Positions 7,302-18,229 of a stretch of DNA of 37,830 nt are shown here, in pieces. The stretch lies in the NCBI GenBank assembly GCA_900322135.1, contig ONYP01000057.1:1-37830 (forward strand), read 5' to 3'. Made by a program: the position numbers and the translations under genes. How positions within the stretch are numbered: the stretch's first letter is position 1; each line of letters opens with the position of its first letter. The notes beneath the pieces were generated by a model, which saw only the letters and a list, made by a program, of their open reading frames with translations, searched no databases and was not told the DNA's origin. This stretch comes from an uncultured Prevotellaceae bacterium (GTDB taxonomy: Bacteria > Bacteroidota > Bacteroidia > Bacteroidales > Muribaculaceae).

Positions 7302-7949
7302 TTACACCCCTGCAGGCTGCTGACGCATCTTTTTGAGCCAGTAGCGGTAGCCCAGCACGGCCATCACGGTGTAGAAGGCGTAGAGGCAGGCCGTGAACGG
7401 AATCTGCTTGTAGATATAGAGAACAGCACACACGAGATCCACGACAAACCACAGCAGCCACTGCTCGGCATATTTCTTGGCGAGCGCCCACAGGGCCACC
7501 ATGCTCAGTGCTGTGGTGAAACTGTCGCACAAGGGCACGCTGCTGTCGGTAAAGGTGAGCAGCACCCAGTAGATGGCGCCCCACAGCGCCATCCCGATGA
7601 GCGTCACGGGCAGCACTAGCCGCAGCGGGAAGCGCGTGATGGGACGCTCGGCTGCCTGCTCCCCTGCCCCGGCATTGCGGCTGCGCACCCACCGCCACAT
7701 GGCGTAGCCATAGACTGCGGCCAGGACATAGTAGACCTCCATGCCGAAGTCGGCATACAAGCCGCGCGCCCAGTACAGGTAGCCGTGCACGATGGGCATG
7801 ACGACGCTCACCAGCCACAGCCAGATGCTGGCCTTGAACTCGAGCCACAGGTAGATGAGGCCGAGCACCAGGCCTGCCATGTCGATAGCCTTGACCAGAG
7901 TGAAGTCACTGAAATATTGCACAATCGTGTCCGTCATCGTCGCAATCAT
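7302..7949 (-). CDS. pnuC: PnuC-type vitamin transporter, probably for thiamine
   Basis: An inner-membrane facilitator of 215 residues with about seven hydrophobic segments. It matches the PnuC family in size and in motifs such as LGLIYLWLEFKASIWLW near the N-terminus and WLLWFVVDLVCAVLYIYK near the C-terminus. PnuC proteins were first known for nicotinamide riboside, but members placed under TPP riboswitches carry thiamine (sometimes named PnuT). Here the gene follows a TonB-dependent receptor that has a TPP riboswitch in its leader, so thiamine is the likely substrate; that is inference from context. The start at 7947-7949 overlaps the end of a CTAG repeat array. The thiamine pyrophosphokinase gene often found third in this operon is absent; the next gene encodes an SH3 protein. 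Confidence 0.9.
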   Translation of the reverse strand: MIATMTDTIVQYFSDFTLVKAIDMAGLVLGLIYLWLEFKASIWLWLVSVVMPIVHGYLYWARGLYADFGMEVYYVLAAVYGYAMWRWVRSRNAGAGEQAAERPITRFPLRLVLPVTLIGMALWGAIYWVLLTFTDSSVPLCDSFTTALSMVALWALAKKYAEQWLLWFVVDLVCAVLYIYKQIPFTACLYAFYTVMAVLGYRYWLKKMRQQPAGV

Positions 7950-8016
7950 CTAGATGATCTAGTTCCTCTAGTTTCTCTAGTAAATCTAGTTCATCTAGTA
8001 AATCTAGTTTCTCTAG
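7950..8016. repeat. Array of eight CTAG tetramers at an exact 9-bp period
   Basis: CTAG occurs at 7950, 7959, 7968, 7977, 7986, 7995, 8004 and 8013, each separated by five variable bases, the last mostly T. It fills the spacer between the TonB receptor stop and the pnuC start. A four-unit array of the same design lies at 36308-36338 before rimO. Function unknown. Confidence 0.9.
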
Positions 8017-8021
8017 AGTAA

Positions 8022-10199
8022 TTAGAACCTCAGTGTCACATGGCCCAGGGCGTTGAGGCCAGCCATGGGATAGAAGCGCGGGTCGCTGTACAGGTTGTAC
8101 TGCGCATCCTTGCTGCCGCCGGGATACAGGGCGCAGGTCTGCGAGTAGCCGTTGGTCTCGTACTTCTCGTCAAGCAGATTGTAGATGGTGGCGCCCACGG
8201 TCACGCTGCGCAGGTGAGGCAACTTGAAGGTGTAAGCCAGGTCCAGGTTGTTGACGAAGTAGGGGTCGAGCGAGTCCTCCTTGCGCTCAAAGTTGTCGAG
8301 GTACTGGCGCGAGACATACTGCGACTGCAGCGCGGCGGTGAAGCCCTTGTAGTCCAGGGCAATCAGGCTGCCCACGGTCACGCTGGGCGAGAAGGCGATG
8401 GTCTTGTCGCCGGCATGGATCTCGGTCTGGGTCCACATGTCGTCCCATGTGTCGGCGTCATAGTCGCTCACATAGCCCACATAGTCCTTGATGCGGTTGC
8501 GCGACAGCGTGGCGTTCACATCCCAGCGCAGCCAGTCGGTGAAGCGGTAGCCCGCCATCAGTTCCACGCCCATGCGGTAACTGTCGGGGACATTCTCGGC
8601 CATCAGCTCGCCAATCTCGTTGATCTTGCCGTTGAGCACCAGCTGGTCCTTGTATTTCATATAATAGAAGTTGACGCCGGCACTGAAACGGCCGCTGCGC
8701 AGTTCGTAGCCGGCCTCCCAGTCATAGAGTTTCTCACTCGTGGGATGCTTCACCAGCGGACCGTCGTTGTAGTTGTTGCGGGTGGGCTCTTTCTGGGCCA
8801 CGGCAAACGAGGCATAGAAGCGGTTGTGCTCGTTCATCTGCCAGTTCACGCCTGCCTTGGGGTTGAAGAAGTCAAACGGCTCGTCGATGTCCAGCACCTG
8901 CAGGTGCTCGGGGCTGGCGGTCCAGTCCCACTTGTCGTTATCGCCCCTCATGATGTTGAAGTCGTTCTTGCGGGCATAGTTGCGGTAATACTCGTGGTCG
9001 GGCGCCAGCGGACTGGTGTAGTTCTCGACCCAGATGACCTGGCCGTAGTGGTCGTTAGTGTAGCGGTTGATGCCGCCACCCAGTGTAGCTGCCAGGCGCT
9101 CGCCGCTGTACTGCAACGAGAACACACCGCCGCCAAAGCCGCTGTCCAGGCATTTCTTGCGCACCAGGCTCGCCTTCTTGCTCGTGCCCTCGGGCGTCAC
9201 CACAGGCTCCAGGCCATACTCCTTGAGCGTGCGCGCGTTCTTGTATTCCTGGTAGTAGCCGTAGCCGTCGGTATAGTGCAGTGCCACATTGAGTTTCCAC
9301 TCGGGGTTGAAGGTCTGGTTCCAAATCAGCTGATAGTGCGTCTGGCGGTAGATGTCTTTCTGGTCCTTGTAGAAGCCCGTCACCTTGCCGTCGTGCTTGA
9401 TTTCGCCGTTGGGGTTATAGGTGCGGTTGTCCTTCAGGTCGTCGCGGCTGATGCCGTCCCAGGCGTGGTAGGTGTCTTCCTTGCCGCCAAAGGTGATGAA
9501 ACGCAGCGAGGTGCCGCCGCCGAAGTAGCCCAACTGCCCATAGTAACTCACCAGTTCGCTGCTCGCGCGGTCACGGTAGCCGTCACTGCCGATGTGCGAC
9601 AGGCGCGCCTCAACCGACCAGTGGTCCCCCAACAGGCCACTGCCCACACGCAGCGTCTCCTTGTTGGTGTTAAACGAGCCGTAACTGCCCGACACCTCGG
9701 CAAAAGCATCGCGCGAGAAGCCCTGGGTGCGCATGTTGACACTCGCACCAAAGGCGCCCGAGCCGTTGGTCGAGGTGCCCACACCACGCTGTACCTGAAT
9801 GTCACGCACCGACGAGGCAAAGTCCGGCGTGTTCACCCAGAAAACGCTATGGCTCTCCGAGTCATTCAACGGGATGTCGTTCACCGTGATGTTGATGCGG
9901 GTAGCATCGGTGCCGCGCACGCGCATCGAGGTGTAGCCCACGCCCGCACCCGCGTCGCTCGTGGTAATCACGCTCGGCGTCATCGTCAGCAGGAACGGGA
10001 TGTCCAGGCCATGGTTCACGGCGGCAATCTGCTTGCCCGTCACATTGGTATACGCTACAGGAGTGTTCTCACTGGCACGCGTGCCCAGTACCTCCACCTC
10101 GCTCAGCGCGATGGTGGGCACCGTGTCGGTTGCCGCGGGCTGTGCCGCTGCGGCAAGGGTTGCCATCGTTGCGGCAACCATCAACAAAGTCTTCTTCAT
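8022..10199 (-). CDS. TonB-dependent outer-membrane receptor for thiamine uptake
   Basis: The 725-residue protein has a signal peptide (MKKTLLMVAATMATLAAAAQ), a possible TonB box (IALSEVEVLGTR), a plug domain (about 40-165) with SMRVRGTDATRINITVNDIP and the VRDIQVQRGVGTS strand, and a long 22-strand-type barrel ending in LGHVTLRF with a terminal phenylalanine. No carboxypeptidase-like extension precedes the plug, so it is not a SusC-type protein. It would import its ligand with TonB-ExbBD energy. The TPP riboswitch directly upstream and PnuC downstream point to thiamine, like the OMR1-class receptors reported for Bacteroidetes. The ligand is inferred from regulation, not from the protein itself. 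Confidence 0.93.
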   Translation of the reverse strand: MKKTLLMVAATMATLAAAAQPAATDTVPTIALSEVEVLGTRASENTPVAYTNVTGKQIAAVNHGLDIPFLLTMTPSVITTSDAGAGVGYTSMRVRGTDATRINITVNDIPLNDSESHSVFWVNTPDFASSVRDIQVQRGVGTSTNGSGAFGASVNMRTQGFSRDAFAEVSGSYGSFNTNKETLRVGSGLLGDHWSVEARLSHIGSDGYRDRASSELVSYYGQLGYFGGGTSLRFITFGGKEDTYHAWDGISRDDLKDNRTYNPNGEIKHDGKVTGFYKDQKDIYRQTHYQLIWNQTFNPEWKLNVALHYTDGYGYYQEYKNARTLKEYGLEPVVTPEGTSKKASLVRKKCLDSGFGGGVFSLQYSGERLAATLGGGINRYTNDHYGQVIWVENYTSPLAPDHEYYRNYARKNDFNIMRGDNDKWDWTASPEHLQVLDIDEPFDFFNPKAGVNWQMNEHNRFYASFAVAQKEPTRNNYNDGPLVKHPTSEKLYDWEAGYELRSGRFSAGVNFYYMKYKDQLVLNGKINEIGELMAENVPDSYRMGVELMAGYRFTDWLRWDVNATLSRNRIKDYVGYVSDYDADTWDDMWTQTEIHAGDKTIAFSPSVTVGSLIALDYKGFTAALQSQYVSRQYLDNFERKEDSLDPYFVNNLDLAYTFKLPHLRSVTVGATIYNLLDEKYETNGYSQTCALYPGGSKDAQYNLYSDPRFYPMAGLNALGHVTLRF

Positions 10200-10220
10200 T
10201 TTTTTAATTCATTAGTTGTT

Positions 10221-10291
10221 CTCTACGCCGGCATTGTCCGGATCAGATCCGATGGGTATGTTCTCAGCCCCTGATACTGCGGGGCACCCCC
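10221..10291 (-). ncRNA. TPP (thiamine pyrophosphate) riboswitch
   Basis: The minus strand carries the thi-box: GGGGTGCCCC (P1/P2 region), GGGGCTGAGAACATACCC with the invariant CUGAGA, then CTGATCCGGACAATGCCGG and GCGTAG. All parts of the two-armed TPP aptamer are in order. It ends about 21 nt before the receptor ATG. No terminator hairpin with a U-run separates them, so binding of TPP probably blocks translation initiation. The leader also holds ATG-AAT-TAA just before the start, a two-codon frame of unknown importance. Confidence 0.95.
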
Positions 10292-10311
10292 AAACTCATT
10301 GAATCACGCCA

Positions 10312-10625: not shown

Positions 10626-10639
10626 TTACGGGACAGGGG
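10467..10639. repeat. Three copies of a GC-rich 28-bp+ repeat with T-runs
   Basis: The core TACGGGCTGTCGCCCGCATT followed by ACGGGACAGGGG occurs at 10471, 10533 and 10608 (steps of 62 and 75 bp). The core contains CGGGC-TGTC-GCCCG, a 5-bp hairpin. Copies two and three are preceded by eight T and copy one by five. G-rich filler (GGGCTGCGGGGGCGG) lies between. The third copy runs into the ATPase-like gene and supplies its stop codon and proline-rich tail. Confidence 0.85.
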
Positions 10640-11882
10640 GCTGCGGGGGCGGGGGCGCGATGGTATCGCTCGATATGGGAGCATTCCCTTGGGGGTGTGG
10701 GTCGGGGGGAGTGTTAAAAGCAGCAATAGGCTTGTGCTTGTCAGGGGTTAGGATGCGGTCGTAGTATCCTGTTTGCAAGTGGTTTAGGAGGGCTTGGCTG
10801 TGGATATCGCTTCCTGTCAAAAAGCAAGATGTGCGAGGGTCGGGAATTTCTCTCATAACCGGGGTGGCAGAGTAGTCTCCCGTTGCTGGATCACGGGAGA
10901 TGATGCCTCGGATGAGTGCGTTGGATATGAGATTGCGAGCGCGGTTAAATTTGGCCAGACGGATGAGGTGACTGGTGACACTTGCCATGAGCTCGTCGGG
11001 CTTGATGGAAACCCCGTCAGAAATAATGCTAGAGAAAATGTCTTGCAAAGTGAGCGTGTCGATGTAGTCTTGGGATGCAGAGACGCGTTGGGGCGCAATG
11101 ACGACCTCCTGCGGCAGGTTTCGGTCGTTGAGCGTGAAAGTGAACTCGTAAGGGGTCTGTTCCAATGCCTTGTAGGAAGTGACGGTAGATGTTGCACCAT
11201 GGTCGATGACCCGGAAGATGTTGGTTGCTATACCAAAGAGCTCCGTTCCAAGCAGTCCCGTGGTATTCTTGACTTTACCGATGAGGTTGTGTGCGATGGC
11301 GCAAACAGCAACATTGTAGAGTGATGTGGTTTCCCTCAGAAAAGCGACGAAGTCGTTGGTGTCGCGATGTCCAGCAAACGGGATGAGGTGGTCAATGTCG
11401 TTGATGACGATGAAATTGGGCCTAAAATCACGCACCGCCCCGATGATGAGGTCGACGATTAAGCTACTGTTGTTATTGAAGGCCCCAAGACAGTCGAGGC
11501 ACATCATTTGGAAGTTGTCGCTGTTGATTTTGCAGTTCTCCTTGAATTGCTGCATCAAGTTGGTAACAGAGTGGATGGAGTTAACTGAGTCAATCCACAT
11601 GACTTTTCCCCCCTTGAGCTCAGTAGTGAAACTTGGAGCAAAAGGGTATTGCCCGCCATTGAGAATGGCTGTTGCGAGCATTTTGGCATAGTGGTGAGTG
11701 CGCGAATGGCTGCAACCAGTGACAAGTGTAATCTCATGGTTAAGCACTACGGGTATGCCGCAGTTGGTGACCAATGGTGTCGCTCCGAATTCGGACAAAT
11801 CGGTTTCGCAAGTGAAGATGCAGTTCTGTTGCGGGTCTTCAAAAACGGGCTGGCGCAAATAGATACATTGATTTTCGTACAT
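10626..11882 (-). CDS. RecA/AAA_25-like ATPase homologue without a P-loop lysine
   Basis: The 418-residue protein looks like the RecA-fold ATPases (AAA_25/RepA-like) found in Bacteroidetes accessory DNA. A beta strand leads to TLVTGCSHSRTHHYAKMLA (53-71) where the Walker A loop should be, but the GK[T/S] lysine is missing. The rest of the fold is present: GGKVMWIDSVNSIHS (91-105), a Walker B-like FIVINDIDHL (157-166) and VCAIAHN (193-199). The C-terminal part (about 240-370) is helical. The last 15 residues are proline-rich (APPPPQPPVP) and come from the GC-rich repeat at 10608. It sits between that repeat and the CRISPR array, on the same strand as cas9-cas1-cas2. No partner gene is visible. 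Its role is unknown, and a link to CRISPR is only positional. Confidence 0.75.
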   Translation of the reverse strand: MYENQCIYLRQPVFEDPQQNCIFTCETDLSEFGATPLVTNCGIPVVLNHEITLVTGCSHSRTHHYAKMLATAILNGGQYPFAPSFTTELKGGKVMWIDSVNSIHSVTNLMQQFKENCKINSDNFQMMCLDCLGAFNNNSSLIVDLIIGAVRDFRPNFIVINDIDHLIPFAGHRDTNDFVAFLRETTSLYNVAVCAIAHNLIGKVKNTTGLLGTELFGIATNIFRVIDHGATSTVTSYKALEQTPYEFTFTLNDRNLPQEVVIAPQRVSASQDYIDTLTLQDIFSSIISDGVSIKPDELMASVTSHLIRLAKFNRARNLISNALIRGIISRDPATGDYSATPVMREIPDPRTSCFLTGSDIHSQALLNHLQTGYYDRILTPDKHKPIAAFNTPPDPHPQGNAPISSDTIAPPPPQPPVP

Positions 11883-12249: not shown

Positions 12250-13137
12250 GTTCTTTTGACTATTATTCCTACATCAAACCACAACGAAGAGGCTAGCAAA
12301 GCGCACAAATCCGCTGTTGTATCTTCTCTAGTTCCTACATCAAACCACAACTCCTAAGTGCTACAAGCGGTGGAGGACATGTTGTATCTTCTCTAGTTCC
12401 TACATCAAACCACAACCAGAACCTGTACATCGTCCACGGCAACCCGGTTGTATCTTCTCTAGTTCCTACATCAAACCACAACTAATTTTGTGCAAAACTC
12501 GATTTTTTATGGTTGTATCTTCTCTAGTTCCTACATCAAACCACAACTTGCCCTAGTTCGTCCATCCCCTATAGCGAGTTGTATCTTCTCTAGTTCCTAC
12601 ATCAAACCACAACTCTTGCAGACTTCTGCAAGTGAAGCTGAAGGTTGTATCTTCTCTAGTTCCTACATCAAACCACAACTTGTTGCATCTGGTATTGGTA
12701 CTTCTTCTGTTGTATCTTCTCTAGTTCCTACATCAAACCACAACCTGCTGAGCAGAACACCGTCATCAACAAGGTTGTATCTTCTCTAGTTCCTACATCA
12801 AACCACAACACCCTTCTGGAAGTGGACTTGGTAAGTTCGTTGTATCTTCTCTAGTTCCTACATCAAACCACAACCCGTCAGCACCAGGTGCACGCCCCAT
12901 CAGTGTTGTATCTTCTCTAGTTCCTACATCAAACCACAACTGCCGGCTGGCGGTGCTTGACATACAGGTAGTTGTATCTTCTCTAGTTCCTACATCAAAC
13001 CACAACTAACCGGTGTTAAACCTGAAGAATTAAAGCGTTGTATCTTCTCTAGTTCCTACATCAAACCACAACCTCGCTTGTCGTCTGCAATGCCCACACG
13101 CGTTGTATCTTCTCTAGTTCCTACATCAAACCACAAC
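12250..13137 (-). CRISPR. Type II-C CRISPR array, 14 repeats and 13 spacers
   Basis: Thirteen identical 36-bp repeats, starting GTTGTATCTTCTCTAGTTCC and ending CATCAAACCACAAC on the plus strand, plus one degenerate repeat at 12250-12285 whose first 17 bases are altered while the last 19 are intact. Repeats start at 12250, 12316, 12381, 12447, 12512, 12578, 12644, 12709, 12774, 12839, 12905, 12971, 13037 and 13102. Spacers are all different and 29 or 30 bp long. The tracrRNA anti-repeat resembles the plus-strand repeat, so the crRNA is read from the minus strand: its repeat begins GUUGUGGUUUGAUGUAGGAA. The leader is then at the right, beside cas2, and the degenerate repeat is the trailer end, which agrees with how repeats decay. 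The newest spacer should be the one at 13073-13101. Confidence 0.98.
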
Positions 13138-13225
13138 TTAATTCAAATATCTAGCTTATTTCCAGCAAGTTGCGACATAATTATCGATTAAGAAGTGGCG
13201 ATAGATGCAGTACTTGTTTACAAAA
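13138..13225 (-). promoter_or_regulatory. CRISPR leader
   Basis: An 88-bp AT-rich stretch between the last repeat and the cas2 stop codon. On the minus strand TAATTTTG (13228-13221), which overlaps the cas2 stop codon, is an exact -7 box that could start a pre-crRNA leader near 13214. No -33 TTG is found at the right distance. Adaptation should add spacers at its junction with the repeat at 13102-13137. Confidence 0.55.
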
Positions 13226-13573
13226 TTACCAAATTATTTCTAACTGGAGTGGCTCGGTTATCACCTTTTTATCTTTTTCTTTCTTGCCCCAGTAATTAAC
13301 GATATCTCCATATTGCTTATCGGTTACGCTCAGTACACTTACCTTTCCCTCGTCGGGGACGAAAAGTTTCACCCGTTTAGCGTGCACCTTCATACTCTCA
13401 TGCGACCCGCAGTGCCTGATATAAACTGAATACTGGAACATAACGAAACCATCTTTCATCAAGTTTTTGCGGAAAAGCGCAGCAGCTTTCCTTTGTTTCT
13501 TGGTTACGACAGGTAAATCAAAAAAAACAAAAAGCCACATAATGCGATAGGCATTTAGTCGGTTTTCGCTCAT
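13226..13573 (-). CDS. cas2: CRISPR-associated endoribonuclease-fold protein Cas2
   Basis: Structural partner of Cas1 in the spacer integration complex. The 115 residues carry the ferredoxin-like Cas2 fold: the first strand MWLFVFFDLPVVTKKQRKAA with the conserved aspartate (D19), then LMKDGFVMFQYSVYIRHCGS and VSVLSVTDKQYG. The length is typical of type II-C. The ATG (13571-13573) overlaps the cas1 stop by the ATGA arrangement, so translation is likely coupled. It is the last cas gene before the leader. Confidence 0.97.
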   Translation of the reverse strand: MSENRLNAYRIMWLFVFFDLPVVTKKQRKAAALFRKNLMKDGFVMFQYSVYIRHCGSHESMKVHAKRVKLFVPDEGKVSVLSVTDKQYGDIVNYWGKKEKDKKVITEPLQLEIIW

Positions 13574-14457
13574 GGCATCCTGGGGAGTGTGAGTTTTTTA
13601 GCGTCTCCCTTAAACACTTTAACCAGAGAAGCAGTTGTCAGCGACAGTGCAACCTCAAGCGGGCGAGTCATCTTTCCGATTTTCACATCAGCGAACAGGA
13701 CTCGCAATAGTCGGCTCTTGACATTATTGTCCAAGTCGTTGGTTTCATCATCCTGGCATAGGGAATAAACCACCTCGTCGACAAATGGTCGATAGGGCTC
13801 CATCACATCATCGGCAAGAGGAAAAGCATTGTATCTGTTTCGATGAAAGATGCCAAATGCGGGATACAATCCAGACCCGACCAATGCCCTGGCCACAGCA
13901 GCCCTAAGAATGGTATAGCCGTAATTCAGGAACTGATTGGGCGAGTCACCATCACGATTCCGCTTGAAGCCATTTTCAAACAACTGCGACCAATAGACTC
14001 GGGCGGCTGCGCCCTCGCGATTATCGGTATCGCCCGACTTAACATTTGCATAAAACGGTTTCAACATTTGACCCTCTTTTCCCAGTCGATCAAGCAGCGC
14101 CGCCTGATTCTTGATTTTAGCCTCAACAAGTTGCTTCCACATCTGTTTCTTGATCGGTGATGCAGCCTCAATTTGAAACTTATGGCTCTCTTGGAGCGTC
14201 GTGTTACCCACAAGTGGTTGCAACATGGCCTGAGGCATCTGTTTCTTGTCACAGATGATGACAGCCACATTGTTGGCAGCCAGTTCATTGAGCAATGGAA
14301 TAGTCAACGAAACCATGGGATTGTCGATGATGAGGAAGCCGATATCCTCGACTGGTCTCGTGAGGGTTTTATCATCCTCGAGGGACTTCACCACCAGTTG
14401 CCCATACTTTAGGGACAGAGCAACTGGTGAAGTGAACATCAATGTCTGTTTAATCAT
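13570..14457 (-). CDS. cas1: CRISPR integrase Cas1
   Basis: The metal-dependent integrase that inserts new spacers, acting with Cas2. The 295-residue length suits type II. An N-terminal beta domain (MIKQTLMFTSPVALSLKYGQ) is followed by the helical catalytic domain with E148 (NREGAAARVYW), H205 (GIFHRNRYNAF) and E220 (DDVMEPYRPFVDE), the three metal-binding residues. The start overlaps the cas9 stop by 8 bp and the end overlaps cas2, so cas9-cas1-cas2 form one tight operon. No csn2 or cas4 is present, which sets the type as II-C. Confidence 0.98.
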   Translation of the reverse strand: MIKQTLMFTSPVALSLKYGQLVVKSLEDDKTLTRPVEDIGFLIIDNPMVSLTIPLLNELAANNVAVIICDKKQMPQAMLQPLVGNTTLQESHKFQIEAASPIKKQMWKQLVEAKIKNQAALLDRLGKEGQMLKPFYANVKSGDTDNREGAAARVYWSQLFENGFKRNRDGDSPNQFLNYGYTILRAAVARALVGSGLYPAFGIFHRNRYNAFPLADDVMEPYRPFVDEVVYSLCQDDETNDLDNNVKSRLLRVLFADVKIGKMTRPLEVALSLTTASLVKVFKGDAKKLTLPRMP

Positions 14458-17400
14458 TTATTATTTTCTTAATTTCACCCAAGTCATTCAATTCAAAGTC
14501 CACCCCGTCTACAAGAGCCTTAAATTGAGTGTGAAGCATCAAGATACCTGGGCGGAAAACTTCAGATGCTCTAAACGCGCCATTTATCTGTTTGACTTCT
14601 GTACCAGGTCTTGCATCTTGATGATGAACCAACGAAATGCGCCCATAAGATCTACTACCTGACATAAAAGAATTCAAACCTGTCACTTTATATAGTCGTT
14701 TTTGCAATTCCTGAAGATTTGAATTCCAGATTTCATCAGGGTTGTTCTCATACAAGAGAACCATTGTGCCGATTTTCAATTGATATTTCAAACTACACCC
14801 ATTATTGACCTCGGGAACCAATTGCCTTTTCTCTTCAGCGTTCTGTCCACTCCTTCGGTAGAAATTGGCTGCTATGATGTTACTGATGAGTTCAAATGTC
14901 CGTTTCTCCCTACCGCGCTCATCACAGCCAACATAAATTGCCATCATGTAGTTGCGGTCGTTCTGCACATGGAACTGCCGTTTGTACTCATGTCGAGACT
15001 TGTCGCGATGCTGACGGATGTTGATAGGCCTGGTCACTGAGTTGGCAAATATCCTCACTTTCTTGATGGGGATTTGCTTCGGCTCATTCATCCAGATTGT
15101 CGCTTCGACCGCCGCTTTGAGGCTGCCATGAGTGGCAATGGCATCTTTTACCTTCTGCTTTACTACTTCATCAACAATCTTATCGATGTCCTTGGCCTCG
15201 AGCATGTCGAGGCTCTTGCGGACAACATAGCGGATGTCACCGTCACGCTCTATAGCACCATAATAGGTGTCGTTGTGAAGCGAACCACGGGCGGTATCAC
15301 CCTGGATGTAGTTGTCGCCACCTTTCTTCTTGGTATGCTTGGGCATGTTGTCCTTGGCGTAATGTGCAACAAGGAGTTCATCCTGGATGTGCTTGATATC
15401 GGCAACAAATGTGGGCCACGGCTTCTCAAATTGGGGTTTATTGCCCTTGCCCAGATGATAGTTGTCCTCGTCCTGATAGAACCGGGCCAATTTGTCGTAT
15501 TGCACCTTGTCAATGCAGGCGATGGTGATTGCATCAATGCAGTGATGAACATGATTGACACGCTCCTTGGCGGTATATTCGTCCTGTATGCCCCACATCT
15601 TGCGGAAGTCTGATGTAGCGATGCCCTTGACGATATAGACCTTGTCGAAGACAGATTTCAGGTACATGCGGGCATAGCGAGAGATGACACTGATATCCGT
15701 CCCCTGACGGCGGGAGAAGCCCTCGGGCACCTCGGTCATCGTGAATCGCCTGTACTTGCCCCTCCAATAATCGCGCTCCAACGACAACAGATGGCGGCGG
15801 CGAATGATACTGTCCTTCTCCTCTTTGGTGGCAGCCCTACTGCCCTTGAGTTTGCGAATGCGCTTGCTCAGTTCTTCGGCACGCTCATTCCAGTGCTCAA
15901 TGCGCTGCAGCATGGCTTCGTAGTAGGGCAACGCTGTGGGCAGTTTAGTCTTTTTGGTCTTGCGGTTATAAGCGCTCTCGCACAGCGTCAAGTTCATCTT
16001 GGTGCTATCACCACCTGCACTCTGGGGAACAGTGTGCTCGATATCATACTTGGGATTAGAGCACAAGAAATCAGAAATCCCGATTTGATTGCCTGTATAG
16101 ATACAGATGTGATTCTGCTCTTCCCATAACTGATACTTGAGGATGTCGTTATCGGTGGGATTCTCGATGTGGGCATCTTCCTGAATCCTCTTCCTGATTT
16201 CCTCTCTGTTTTTCTCCTGTTGGCGTTGCCACTGCTGAATCGCCCATCGGCGGTTAGCATCGTTGAGATCCCTTGAGAACTCGATGTGGACCTTGGTATC
16301 CTTGTCAATATAACCCTGAGCCAACAATAAGTTAACCACCTTGCGCAATCGGAACATAGAACGCATAGCCATCGGGTTCCTCACACTGCTGATGCGGGGC
16401 GAGCCCAACTGGTAGATGCCGTCATCACCAGGGGCCACATGTGGGTACTGCTCCATCATTGACGGGTGGTAGAGTTTCTGCAGGCTCTTTTCATCAAAAT
16501 CATATCCTGAATATTCGCTTTTCAAATAATCCTTGAAATAGACCTCCAAGGGGCGCTCATCATTTTTATTGCCATACTCCAATAAAGCCTCAACAGCAGC
16601 ATTGATGGCCTTCTCGTGTTCGTCGTCATGCCTCATGAAAAAAGAGGGCAGCACCTCGTCCAGATTGGCCAAAAAGACGGCCTGGGAATAAATCAGGCCA
16701 TAGTCCTTGAGGAATGGCAGAATTTTGCGGATGGCCTTGAGGCTAAGTGAAGCATAGTCATTAGGCATTGAGATGTGGGCAAATTTCTCGGCATCCTCAT
16801 CGCTTAATTGCAGCCGGTCCTTGGCAAACATCTTCAATTTCTCCTCATCGTCAAAGAAGAACAGGGCGTGCCAGACATCATTCATGATTTGGAACGGAGT
16901 TTTCCCCTCGGCAAGTGTATAAACCTCACATGCCCCTTCCAACCAATTCTCACCGAAGATTTCCACGAGTTGAGCAGTTACCGTGCTGATGGGAACAGGA
17001 GTATCCATCTGATAGTTGAACTGGTAGGGCTTGTCGTCTTTGTCACGGAAGTACATATATTTTCCCTTGCCAGCGAGTTTCTTGGCGATATCCTCAAAAT
17101 TAAAGGAGTGTTTGCTTTTCCGGTACTTCTTGAAAAGAGGCAAGATGATAGCCTTTTCATCACCCGACAAATAGCGCAGATCGGCATCGGCGGGCGTCTT
17201 GATTTTGATGTTGTTCAAGAAACTGTAAAGACGGAATTCCTCAAACAAGGGATGTGATGCCGGACAACGCGCTTTACCTTTCTCGAAAGCGCAGGTGCCG
17301 ACAGTGCCCTTCTGCGATTTCAGCGGGCGCTGGAAAAAGATGGCTCTCCTAAGATTGTCGACCAAATCCTCAGACAGTTGCTGCTTCTCGCATATAGCAT

Positions 17401-18064
17401 TGAATTCTTTCAGGTAATGCTCGTTGCGTGCGGTATAACGGCTCCTTATCTTCTCGCCAGACTGATAGAGACGATAGAAGTATTCGCCCAAATACTCACA
17501 CCCCGCATCCTGCATCTCGGCAGTCAGGCTGCTGATACCTTCACTGACGGCACCGTCTGATGCCTTTGTCGTCTCTTTCCTGTTGCTTAGGAAACCTCGA
17601 CGCTGATTAAGATGATACAGTGCTCGGCCCAAAATATATCGTTGTGTCAAGTTAGACAAATCCAATTGTTGTGTCAAACAGATATGCCTGAACTGGTATG
17701 GATTCACATTATTCTTATCCTCAGTGCGCTGCCATGCCAGGAATTCTTCATCATGAGGGTAAATACCATTCAGACGCCAATCTCGTAATTGCTCAGTGTC
17801 AACGGGAGGGCACAAACGATTCTGTTCCAATACCGTGAGCAGGCGTATTTTCCTCACTTTGCGCCGCCAATAATGTTTACGCAAAGCCCTGTGTTCGGTG
17901 CGTTCGGCTGCCTTAGAAGATTCAATACCTTTTTCTATTTTTACTCCTTCGGTAAAAATGTTTGTTCCTTTGTGCAATAATTTAATTTCACCGTTGTCAT
18001 TCTTTTCTATAATCGCCCATCCAAGGCTATTTGTTCCGGTGTCAATTCCTAATATTTTTTCCAT
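14450..18064 (-). CDS. cas9: CRISPR-associated endonuclease Cas9, type II-C, compact (1204 aa)
   Basis: RNA-guided DNA endonuclease. Domains in order: RuvC-I with D8 (LGIDTGTNSLGWAI), an arginine-rich bridge helix (about 52-80: TEHRALRKHYWRRKVRKIR), a recognition lobe (about 85-585), RuvC-II with E595 (VHIEFSRDL), HNH with H677 (YDIEHTVPQSAGG), C654 and N691/N700, RuvC-III with H841 and D844 (VNHVHHCIDAITIA), and a C-terminal wedge and PAM-interacting part (about 900-1204). Every catalytic residue is present, so both DNA strands should be cut. Many Bacteroidales Cas9 proteins are near 1400 residues, so this one is short. The PAM cannot be read from the sequence. GC content looks lower than in the flanking core genes. 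The start codon lies about 85 bp from the divergent tracrRNA start. No clear cas9 promoter was found in that gap. Confidence 0.98.
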   Translation of the reverse strand: MEKILGIDTGTNSLGWAIIEKNDNGEIKLLHKGTNIFTEGVKIEKGIESSKAAERTEHRALRKHYWRRKVRKIRLLTVLEQNRLCPPVDTEQLRDWRLNGIYPHDEEFLAWQRTEDKNNVNPYQFRHICLTQQLDLSNLTQRYILGRALYHLNQRRGFLSNRKETTKASDGAVSEGISSLTAEMQDAGCEYLGEYFYRLYQSGEKIRSRYTARNEHYLKEFNAICEKQQLSEDLVDNLRRAIFFQRPLKSQKGTVGTCAFEKGKARCPASHPLFEEFRLYSFLNNIKIKTPADADLRYLSGDEKAIILPLFKKYRKSKHSFNFEDIAKKLAGKGKYMYFRDKDDKPYQFNYQMDTPVPISTVTAQLVEIFGENWLEGACEVYTLAEGKTPFQIMNDVWHALFFFDDEEKLKMFAKDRLQLSDEDAEKFAHISMPNDYASLSLKAIRKILPFLKDYGLIYSQAVFLANLDEVLPSFFMRHDDEHEKAINAAVEALLEYGNKNDERPLEVYFKDYLKSEYSGYDFDEKSLQKLYHPSMMEQYPHVAPGDDGIYQLGSPRISSVRNPMAMRSMFRLRKVVNLLLAQGYIDKDTKVHIEFSRDLNDANRRWAIQQWQRQQEKNREEIRKRIQEDAHIENPTDNDILKYQLWEEQNHICIYTGNQIGISDFLCSNPKYDIEHTVPQSAGGDSTKMNLTLCESAYNRKTKKTKLPTALPYYEAMLQRIEHWNERAEELSKRIRKLKGSRAATKEEKDSIIRRRHLLSLERDYWRGKYRRFTMTEVPEGFSRRQGTDISVISRYARMYLKSVFDKVYIVKGIATSDFRKMWGIQDEYTAKERVNHVHHCIDAITIACIDKVQYDKLARFYQDEDNYHLGKGNKPQFEKPWPTFVADIKHIQDELLVAHYAKDNMPKHTKKKGGDNYIQGDTARGSLHNDTYYGAIERDGDIRYVVRKSLDMLEAKDIDKIVDEVVKQKVKDAIATHGSLKAAVEATIWMNEPKQIPIKKVRIFANSVTRPINIRQHRDKSRHEYKRQFHVQNDRNYMMAIYVGCDERGREKRTFELISNIIAANFYRRSGQNAEEKRQLVPEVNNGCSLKYQLKIGTMVLLYENNPDEIWNSNLQELQKRLYKVTGLNSFMSGSRSYGRISLVHHQDARPGTEVKQINGAFRASEVFRPGILMLHTQFKALVDGVDFELNDLGEIKKIIND

Positions 18065-18111
18065 AAAGTGATAATTTATCTGTTAAATTTCGGTAAATTT
18101 ACTCCAATTAC

Positions 18112-18142
18112 TTGATTCTGCAAAATAATAGTTATAATTTTG
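18112..18142 (+). promoter_or_regulatory. tracrRNA promoter
   Basis: TTG at 18112-18114, a 20-bp spacer and TAATTTTG at 18135-18142 give a full consensus promoter pointing away from cas9. Transcription should begin near 18148, just before the anti-repeat. Confidence 0.85.
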
Positions 18143-18147
18143 TGCCC

Positions 18148-18229
18148 ATAAGATTCCTACATCTTATCACAATAAGGCCATCATGGCCGAAGGGTAAAAC
18201 CTATACTCCCGCTTCGGTGGGAGTTTTTT
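18148..18229 (+). ncRNA. tracrRNA
   Basis: About 80 nt with every expected part. The anti-repeat (about 18152-18173) contains ATTCCTACATC, which pairs with GATGTAGGAA of the crRNA repeat, and CACAAT, which pairs with its 5' GUUGUG. A four-base internal bulge (TTAT) separates the two helices. A nexus hairpin GGCC-ATCAT-GGCC follows (18176-18188). The 3' end is a Rho-independent terminator, ACTCCCGC-TTCG-GTGGGAGT (18205-18224) with a UUCG tetraloop and six T. The start is inferred from the promoter. Confidence 0.92.

Follow-up and report, generated by a model that had tools for sequence, protein, structure and literature searches.

The CRISPR-Cas locus described here is an ordinary, well-preserved type II-C locus of a known kind, and what is new about it is a tentative PAM unlike that of its closest relative, together with the observation that cas1 was repeatedly lost from related systems. 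We read it as a complete type II-C system of a rumen-type Prevotellaceae, functional by prediction, and put the probability of this reading at about 0.87. An earlier note on the same DNA had described the locus as complete and apparently functional, and this description is supported by the genes and their catalytic residues, by dN/dS values, by covariation in the tracrRNA and by spacers that match viruses. In the following, the window means the whole stretch of DNA that was analysed, a contig of 37,830 bp in a draft MAG of 3.09 Mb that is 82.6% complete.

Genes of the locus and its subtype

The locus is made up of the following features:

14450-18064, minus strand: cas9, 1204 aa, with RuvC I-III and HNH (TIGR01865, 457 bits; HNH_4 and RuvC_III)
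13570-14457, minus strand: cas1, 295 aa, intact type II integrase (TIGR03639, 296 bits; PADLOC Cas1_II)
13226-13573, minus strand: cas2, 115 aa, intact (TIGR01573, 63 bits; PADLOC Cas2_II)
13138-13225, minus strand: leader, 88 bp from cas2 to the first repeat, facing lower coordinates and positioned opposite the decayed repeat; its promoter is presumed
12250-13137, minus strand: CRISPR array of 13 exact 36-nt repeats, one decayed distal repeat and 13 spacers of 29-30 nt
12250-12285, minus strand: decayed leader-distal repeat, 5' 20 nt retained, 3' part diverged
about 18149-18229, plus strand: tracrRNA with anti-repeat (18153-18172), nexus hairpin, short second stem, terminator hairpin (18205-18224) and T run; the 5' end is putative
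18135-18142, plus strand: candidate tracrRNA promoter, TAATTTTG

The coordinates bear out the layout proposed earlier: cas9 and cas1 overlap by 8 bp and cas1 and cas2 by 4 bp, the array follows the leader, and the tracrRNA runs divergently, outward from cas9. Judged by the family models, chance resemblance is excluded for Cas9, Cas1 and Cas2 because of the scores listed above, that of Cas9 corresponding to an E value of 1.4e-136. The catalytic residues named in the earlier note are all at their positions, both in Cas9 (D8, E595, H841 and D844 of RuvC, H677 of HNH) and in Cas1 (E148, H205 and E220). Among relatives with matches long enough to align, window included, E595, H677, H841 and D844 are kept in 39 of 39 Cas9 rows and D8 in 38, the remaining row having a gap there; each of the three Cas1 residues is kept in 31 of 31 rows, and D19 of Cas2 in 33 of 33. 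The dN/dS ratio of cas9 is 0.061 against RUG278 and 0.047 against RUG362, at dS values (1.1 and 2.2) that are partly saturated, and that of cas1 is 0.048 against RUG278. By this measure both genes are under purifying selection.

Assignment to type II is based on a Cas9 with RuvC and HNH nuclease motifs, a tracrRNA whose anti-repeat fits the array's own repeat, and Cas1 and Cas2 of the type II kind (TIGR03639; PADLOC Cas1_II, Cas2_II). Subtype II-C has a three-gene operon without the csn2 of II-A or the cas4 of II-B. Such an operon was found here, as checked at the operon and its two flanking ORFs: there is no room for csn2 or cas4 among cas9, cas1, cas2 and the array, and of the two flanking ORFs that of 418 aa matches no family and that of 377 aa is a C45-like acyltransferase. 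Assignment to II-D/Cas9d was rejected, as model NF049971 gives 93.6 bits against a cut-off of 375. The best solved chains for the window's Cas9 are distant Cas9s of several kinds, including Nme1 and Nme2 of II-C, and phmmer aligns them in two local stretches only; the Cas9 tree used below was built from the window's own relatives only. The type II-C system of Bacteroides fragilis, in the available part of its description (PMC5704556), is alike in carrying cas9-cas1-cas2 in Bacteroidales, but it has 47-nt repeats and additional ORFs, whereas the window has 36-nt repeats and no such ORFs.

Two observations concern the neighbourhood. The 418-aa ORF (10626-11882, minus strand) lies between the array and a TonB gene; it has no match in Pfam, NCBIfam, PADLOC or PHROGs at E 0.001 and no plasmid relative, and in the RUG362 locus the roughly 800 bp from the array to the TonB match leave too little room for it. 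At 7302-10301 on the minus strand, a TPP riboswitch (10202-10301) stands ahead of a TonB-dependent receptor-like gene, named from sequence, and a PnuC-like gene, and this stretch is probably a thiamin uptake operon.

The array and its tracrRNA

The crRNAs are read on the minus strand, a direction fixed by the pairing of the minus-strand repeat with the anti-repeat at 18153-18172. The decayed repeat thus lies farthest from the leader, as expected. A match to MT838156.1 is explained by a similar repeat that occurs twice at one end of this record, the copies lying 66 bases apart.

The 5' part of the crRNA repeat (positions 2-20) pairs with the tracrRNA around a conserved 2-nt internal loop at positions 9-10. 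The window and 35 of the listed relatives have an array, and in every one of these 36 loci repeat positions 2-7 and 11-18 are paired and positions 9-10 constantly unpaired, with G-U at position 7 in 33 of them. Position 18 and its anti-repeat partner are G-C in 19 loci and A-T in 17, paired in every case, and across these loci the duplex shows compensatory change.

The fold of the tracrRNA itself is supported by covariation in an alignment of 27 sequences (the window and 26 of the 45 relatives). Both-sided change was seen in 7 of 14 pairs, in 36 cells compared with 10.1 in shuffles, and 93.7% of cells are paired compared with 82.6%; the number of pair types was equalled by 7 of 500 shuffles. 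Slid versions of the structure score far lower, an advantage partly given to it by its having been drawn by hand on the same alignment. In 14 of 27 rows the bases of one nexus pair drawn by hand (columns 33-39) do not pair. RNAalifold independently gave nearly the same stems. The candidate promoter TAATTTTG resembles the Bacteroidetes -7 box, and TTTGCA-type stretches occur at a similar place ahead of the tracrRNA in many relatives.

It is very improbable that the locus is decayed and non-functional. One distal repeat has decayed, which is normal for that end of an array, and the source is a draft genome of 82.6% completeness; against this stand three intact overlapping genes, purifying selection on cas9 and cas1, a coevolving tracrRNA and spacers that match viruses.

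Relatives of the Cas9 and its length

Forty-five related loci, with 42-89% identity in the best segment, came from a scan of GTDB genomes. The nearest are RUG278 (L021), with 89% Cas9 identity, and RUG362 (L022), with 84%, both uncultured rumen Prevotellaceae MAGs. A characterised homologue above about 80% identity, which in the view of the earlier note would take away the novelty, was not found in the sources searched. Both relatives share with the window the 5' part of the repeat and a near-identical tracrRNA, and RUG362 also has the same genes on both sides of the locus. They are unlike the window in the C-terminus of Cas9 (74% identity in RUG278 and 69% in RUG362 over residues 1031-1204), in their protospacer flanks, and in cas1, which has a stop in RUG278 and is deleted in RUG362.

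Cas9 is 1195-1223 aa long in 36 of the 45 relatives and longer in three (1346, 1347 and 1483 aa); the remaining six are cut, interrupted or misread, and the length rows of L027 and L039 were disregarded. The cas9 frame is broken in L027, L055 and L060, and in L061, a fragment of 3.1 kb, it extends over two frames as well. Of the 101 genomes of the genus, 25 contain a match to Cas9. The window's kind is present in three of these (its own genome, G047 and G050), and in 19 of the other 22 the open frames measure 1367-1497 aa. Two Cas9 kinds occur in the genus, and a length of about 1204 aa is the usual one for the first of them and no special trait, because most relatives have it and the other kind is mostly 1367-1497 aa. 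The earlier statement that this Cas9 is shorter than many homologues is correct only with respect to the genus's other kind, the length being normal within the clade. For the same reason the argument that a short protein should have a distinct PAM domain is not supported, and length was rejected as a sign of novelty.

Among the titles and abstract openings found in the literature, none mentions this clade of Cas9s or their PAM. The main text of a Cas9 catalogue (PMC7606464) leaves Prevotella unnamed, and its supplement may include a member of the clade; the accessible part of PMC13356809 deals with Cas9 loci in rumen MAGs generally.

Spacer targets and the predicted PAM

The search of IMG/VR, made with exact 18-20-nt seeds on the PAM side, covered eight of the 13 spacers, namely 1-7 and 11. 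Full-length viral matches were found for three of the eight:

12941-12970, minus strand: spacer 3, 30/30 in viral contig L069; 3' flank GGACGCCACAAG / GGACGCCA
12875-12904, minus strand: spacer 4, 29/30 in viral contig L158, in a weakly portal-like gene; 3' flank CCTCACCAAGGA / CCTCACCA
12417-12446, minus strand: spacer 11, 30/30 in viral contig L111, in a RecT gene; 3' flank CATCACCATCAG / CATCACCA

The gene with the spacer 3 target has no PHROG match and its neighbour has one. Spacer 4 also matches a same-genus genome (L095) at 26/30, with the flank CATCACCAAGGA. Matches of spacers 6 (L096) and 8 (L097), with six mismatches each, and of spacer 10 (L175), with five, were not counted, and the seed hits of spacer 7 are due to chance, as all 18 have at least four mismatches elsewhere. 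A non-exhaustive search for self-targeting (the array and three stretches of it, against sets including the window's own draft genome) found no spacer matched in full beyond the array itself; the closest hit was 92% over 25 nt, for spacer 6. Among plasmids, the matches to the window's array were all weak, the best having an E value of 0.8, and phages compared with the arrays of L027, L040, L021 and L022 gave nothing usable.

PAM prediction from protospacer flanks, as the earlier note had suggested, leads to a tentative 3' N3-C-R-CCA based on spacers 3, 4 and 11, three of the 13. The flanks suggest that CCA at positions 6-8 is its firmest part. The C at position 4 appears weak, because two of the four viral contigs that are one mismatch away from spacer 11 have G there.

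For comparison, five spacers each of RUG278 and RUG362 were searched against the 101 genus genomes, the sixth of RUG278, beside a decayed repeat, being left out. Four of the ten have matches. In RUG278 these are spacer 1 (29/30, flank CATATCAA), spacer 2 (27/30, AGCATCAA) and spacer 4 (29/29, TGGAACAA), whose flanks agree on N3-A-W-CAA; a weaker match of spacer 1 (L194, 27/30) is flanked by ATCATTAA, at variance with CAA. Spacer 5 of RUG362 matches at 28/29 with the flank AGGCGCAG (in the window's own genome and at two other loci) or AGTTGCAG, and at 27/29 with AGCATCAG. With three spacers on each side, this suggests that the PAM of the window, N3-C-R-CCA, differs from the N3-A-W-CAA of RUG278.

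Genes at the RUG278 and RUG362 targets include a RecE-like exonuclease, a NinB-like protein, a virion protein and a reverse transcriptase. The last adjoins a 29/30 match of RUG278 spacer 1 (L191), and a link to a diversity-generating retroelement is our guess. In the window's own genome, phage-like genes L214 (G000:C65:71317-71345) and L216 (G000:C126:44575-44603) have 29/29 and 28/29 matches to RUG278/RUG362 spacers; no comparable phage-like match was found in that genome for the window's own spacers.

How far agreement among so few flanks can be trusted was judged from random draws. Both flank triplets, that of the window and that of RUG278, agree at positions 4, 6, 7 and 8, in other letters. 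When triplets were drawn at random from the same records, agreement in as many of ten columns was reached in 54 (window) and 55 (RUG278) of 20,000 draws. Position 6 is C in all seven flanks, and one column identical in all seven came up in 288 of 100,000 draws. The control consisted of 34 seed hits of spacers 3, 4, 6 and 7 that do not extend to a full-length match; CCA stands at positions 6-8 in two of these. It is rather unlikely, with a real chance nonetheless, that the shared CCA reflects coincidence or codon conservation and that the real PAM is different or looser. Such a reading gains from the small number of spacers, three, and from the flank of spacer 11, which lies within a conserved run of RecT codons where 50 of 52 seed hits have CCA whatever their match; it loses from the rarity of equal agreement among random triplets (about 0.3%) and from the RUG278 system agreeing at the same columns in other letters.

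Divergence of the PAM-interacting part

The wedge and PAM-interacting part was taken as residues ~907-1204 of Cas9. Identity between the window and RUG278 is 92% over residues 1-906, compared with the 74% over residues 1031-1204 given above, and dN/dS rises from 0.043 over residues 1-906 to 0.20 over residues 1031-1200. For 39 pairs of relatives with no less than 78% identity, divergence over 1031-1204 was compared with that over 1-906, and the ratio of the former to the latter is at least 2 in seven. All three pairs formed by the window, RUG278 and RUG362 are among these seven (2.3, 3.0 and 3.2). The other four have ratios of 4.0-15.2 and resemble cases of a replaced domain; L045-L058, for instance, has 96% compared with 44%. 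In L045-L058 and L046-L051, Cas9s that are 92-96% identical over residues 1-906 share 37-44% over residues 1031-1204, the pattern of PAM-domain replacement within the clade.

A profile search found no solved chain that matches the C-terminal part by sequence. The AlphaFold model of residues 880-1204 has a mean pLDDT of 76.6, and its best fold match in Foldseek is the weak one to the C-terminus of CbCas9 (8iyq), the PcrIIC1-associated II-C Cas9 (E 1e-10, TM 0.39). CbCas9 is unlike the window's protein in sharing 21% identity over the C-terminal part and in size (1442 residues for the chain in 8wr4), and the window's operon has no additional gene. The PAM-reading part of the window's Cas9 looks distinct, being the fastest-diverging part in the comparison with its two nearest relatives, without a solved sequence match, and accompanied by a flank motif unlike that of its 89% relative. 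The earlier suggestion of a possibly distinct PAM domain stands on these observations, and length is not the reason for it.

Both PAM diversity among close II-C Cas9s and PAM-domain shuffling are known, according to the available parts of PMC9433092 and PMC8482600. In PMC9433092, Nme1Cas9, Nme2Cas9 and their kin are similar to the window's system in belonging to II-C, in showing little or no preference at PAM positions 1-4 and in a PAM that varies between close orthologues; they are 1035-1078 aa long in its table compared with 1204 aa here, and their solved chains align in part.

Absence of cas1 in related loci

In 40 relatives the contig continues for at least 1.3 kb behind cas9 (L039, L047, L061, L062 and L064 were left out because their contigs end early). 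Among these 40, cas1 is matched over at least 96% of its length in 30 and over at most 26% in ten, which are counted as missing it: L022, L024, L025, L032, L033, L045, L051, L056, L057 and L060. These loci were gathered through Cas9, so that loss of cas9 with cas1 kept would escape the count. Eight of the ten keep the array directly after cas9, and part of cas2 is often missing too. On a quick Cas9 tree of 39 rows, nine changes are needed for nine cas1-less rows; L060 and six others were left out of this tree, 9 of its 36 inner forks are drawn open, and the change count alone cannot separate loss from gain. Scraps of cas1 or cas2 mark several of the absences as losses: RUG362, for example, has cas1 scraps and half of cas2. 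A search for Cas1 in the whole assemblies of the ten gave no match in seven, only the remnant in one, the complete genome of Prevotella communis E15-14, and another Cas1 in two; the drafts among them may be incomplete. Taken together, related systems appear to have lost the spacer-adding gene again and again. L032 and L056 have a full-length Cas9 and a tracrRNA, and no cas1, cas2 or array was found within 6 kb on either side.

This raises the question whether in the window, too, interference works and adaptation is fading, so that memory no longer grows, as may hold for its two nearest relatives. The cas1 of RUG278, counted among the 30, has a stop at codon 249 (which may be a MAG sequencing error), RUG362 retains only scraps, and a quarter of the relatives (10 of 40) miss the gene. 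We consider this improbable for the window itself, where cas1 and cas2 are full-length with their catalytic residues, 13 spacers compare with five or six in the two relatives, and the 13 repeats are identical.

Implications

We prefer the reading of a complete system, predicted to work as follows. Cas1-Cas2 would insert new spacers at the leader end, on the 13137 side. The array would be transcribed on the minus strand, and the repeat of each crRNA would pair with the divergently encoded tracrRNA. Cas9 loaded with this guide would then cut phage DNA next to the PAM.

For the clade we offer a broader proposal, to which we give somewhat less than even odds: its Cas9s may change their PAM by fast divergence of the C-terminal part, as in the window, RUG278 and RUG362, or by its replacement, with guide RNA and nuclease near-fixed, so that Cas9s 89% identical would read different PAMs (N3-C-R-CCA and N3-A-W-CAA); adaptation would have been dropped repeatedly, leaving interference-only systems with a frozen memory.

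The locus is one corner of a natural experiment, in which related Cas9s use one guide RNA design and have diverging C-terminal domains, and such a set could help to locate the residues that read the PAM. That cas1 is repeatedly missing from loci with cas9 and array still in place is relevant to the question whether adaptation carries a cost. This rumen host is connected to viruses by its spacer matches and the PAM hypothesis.
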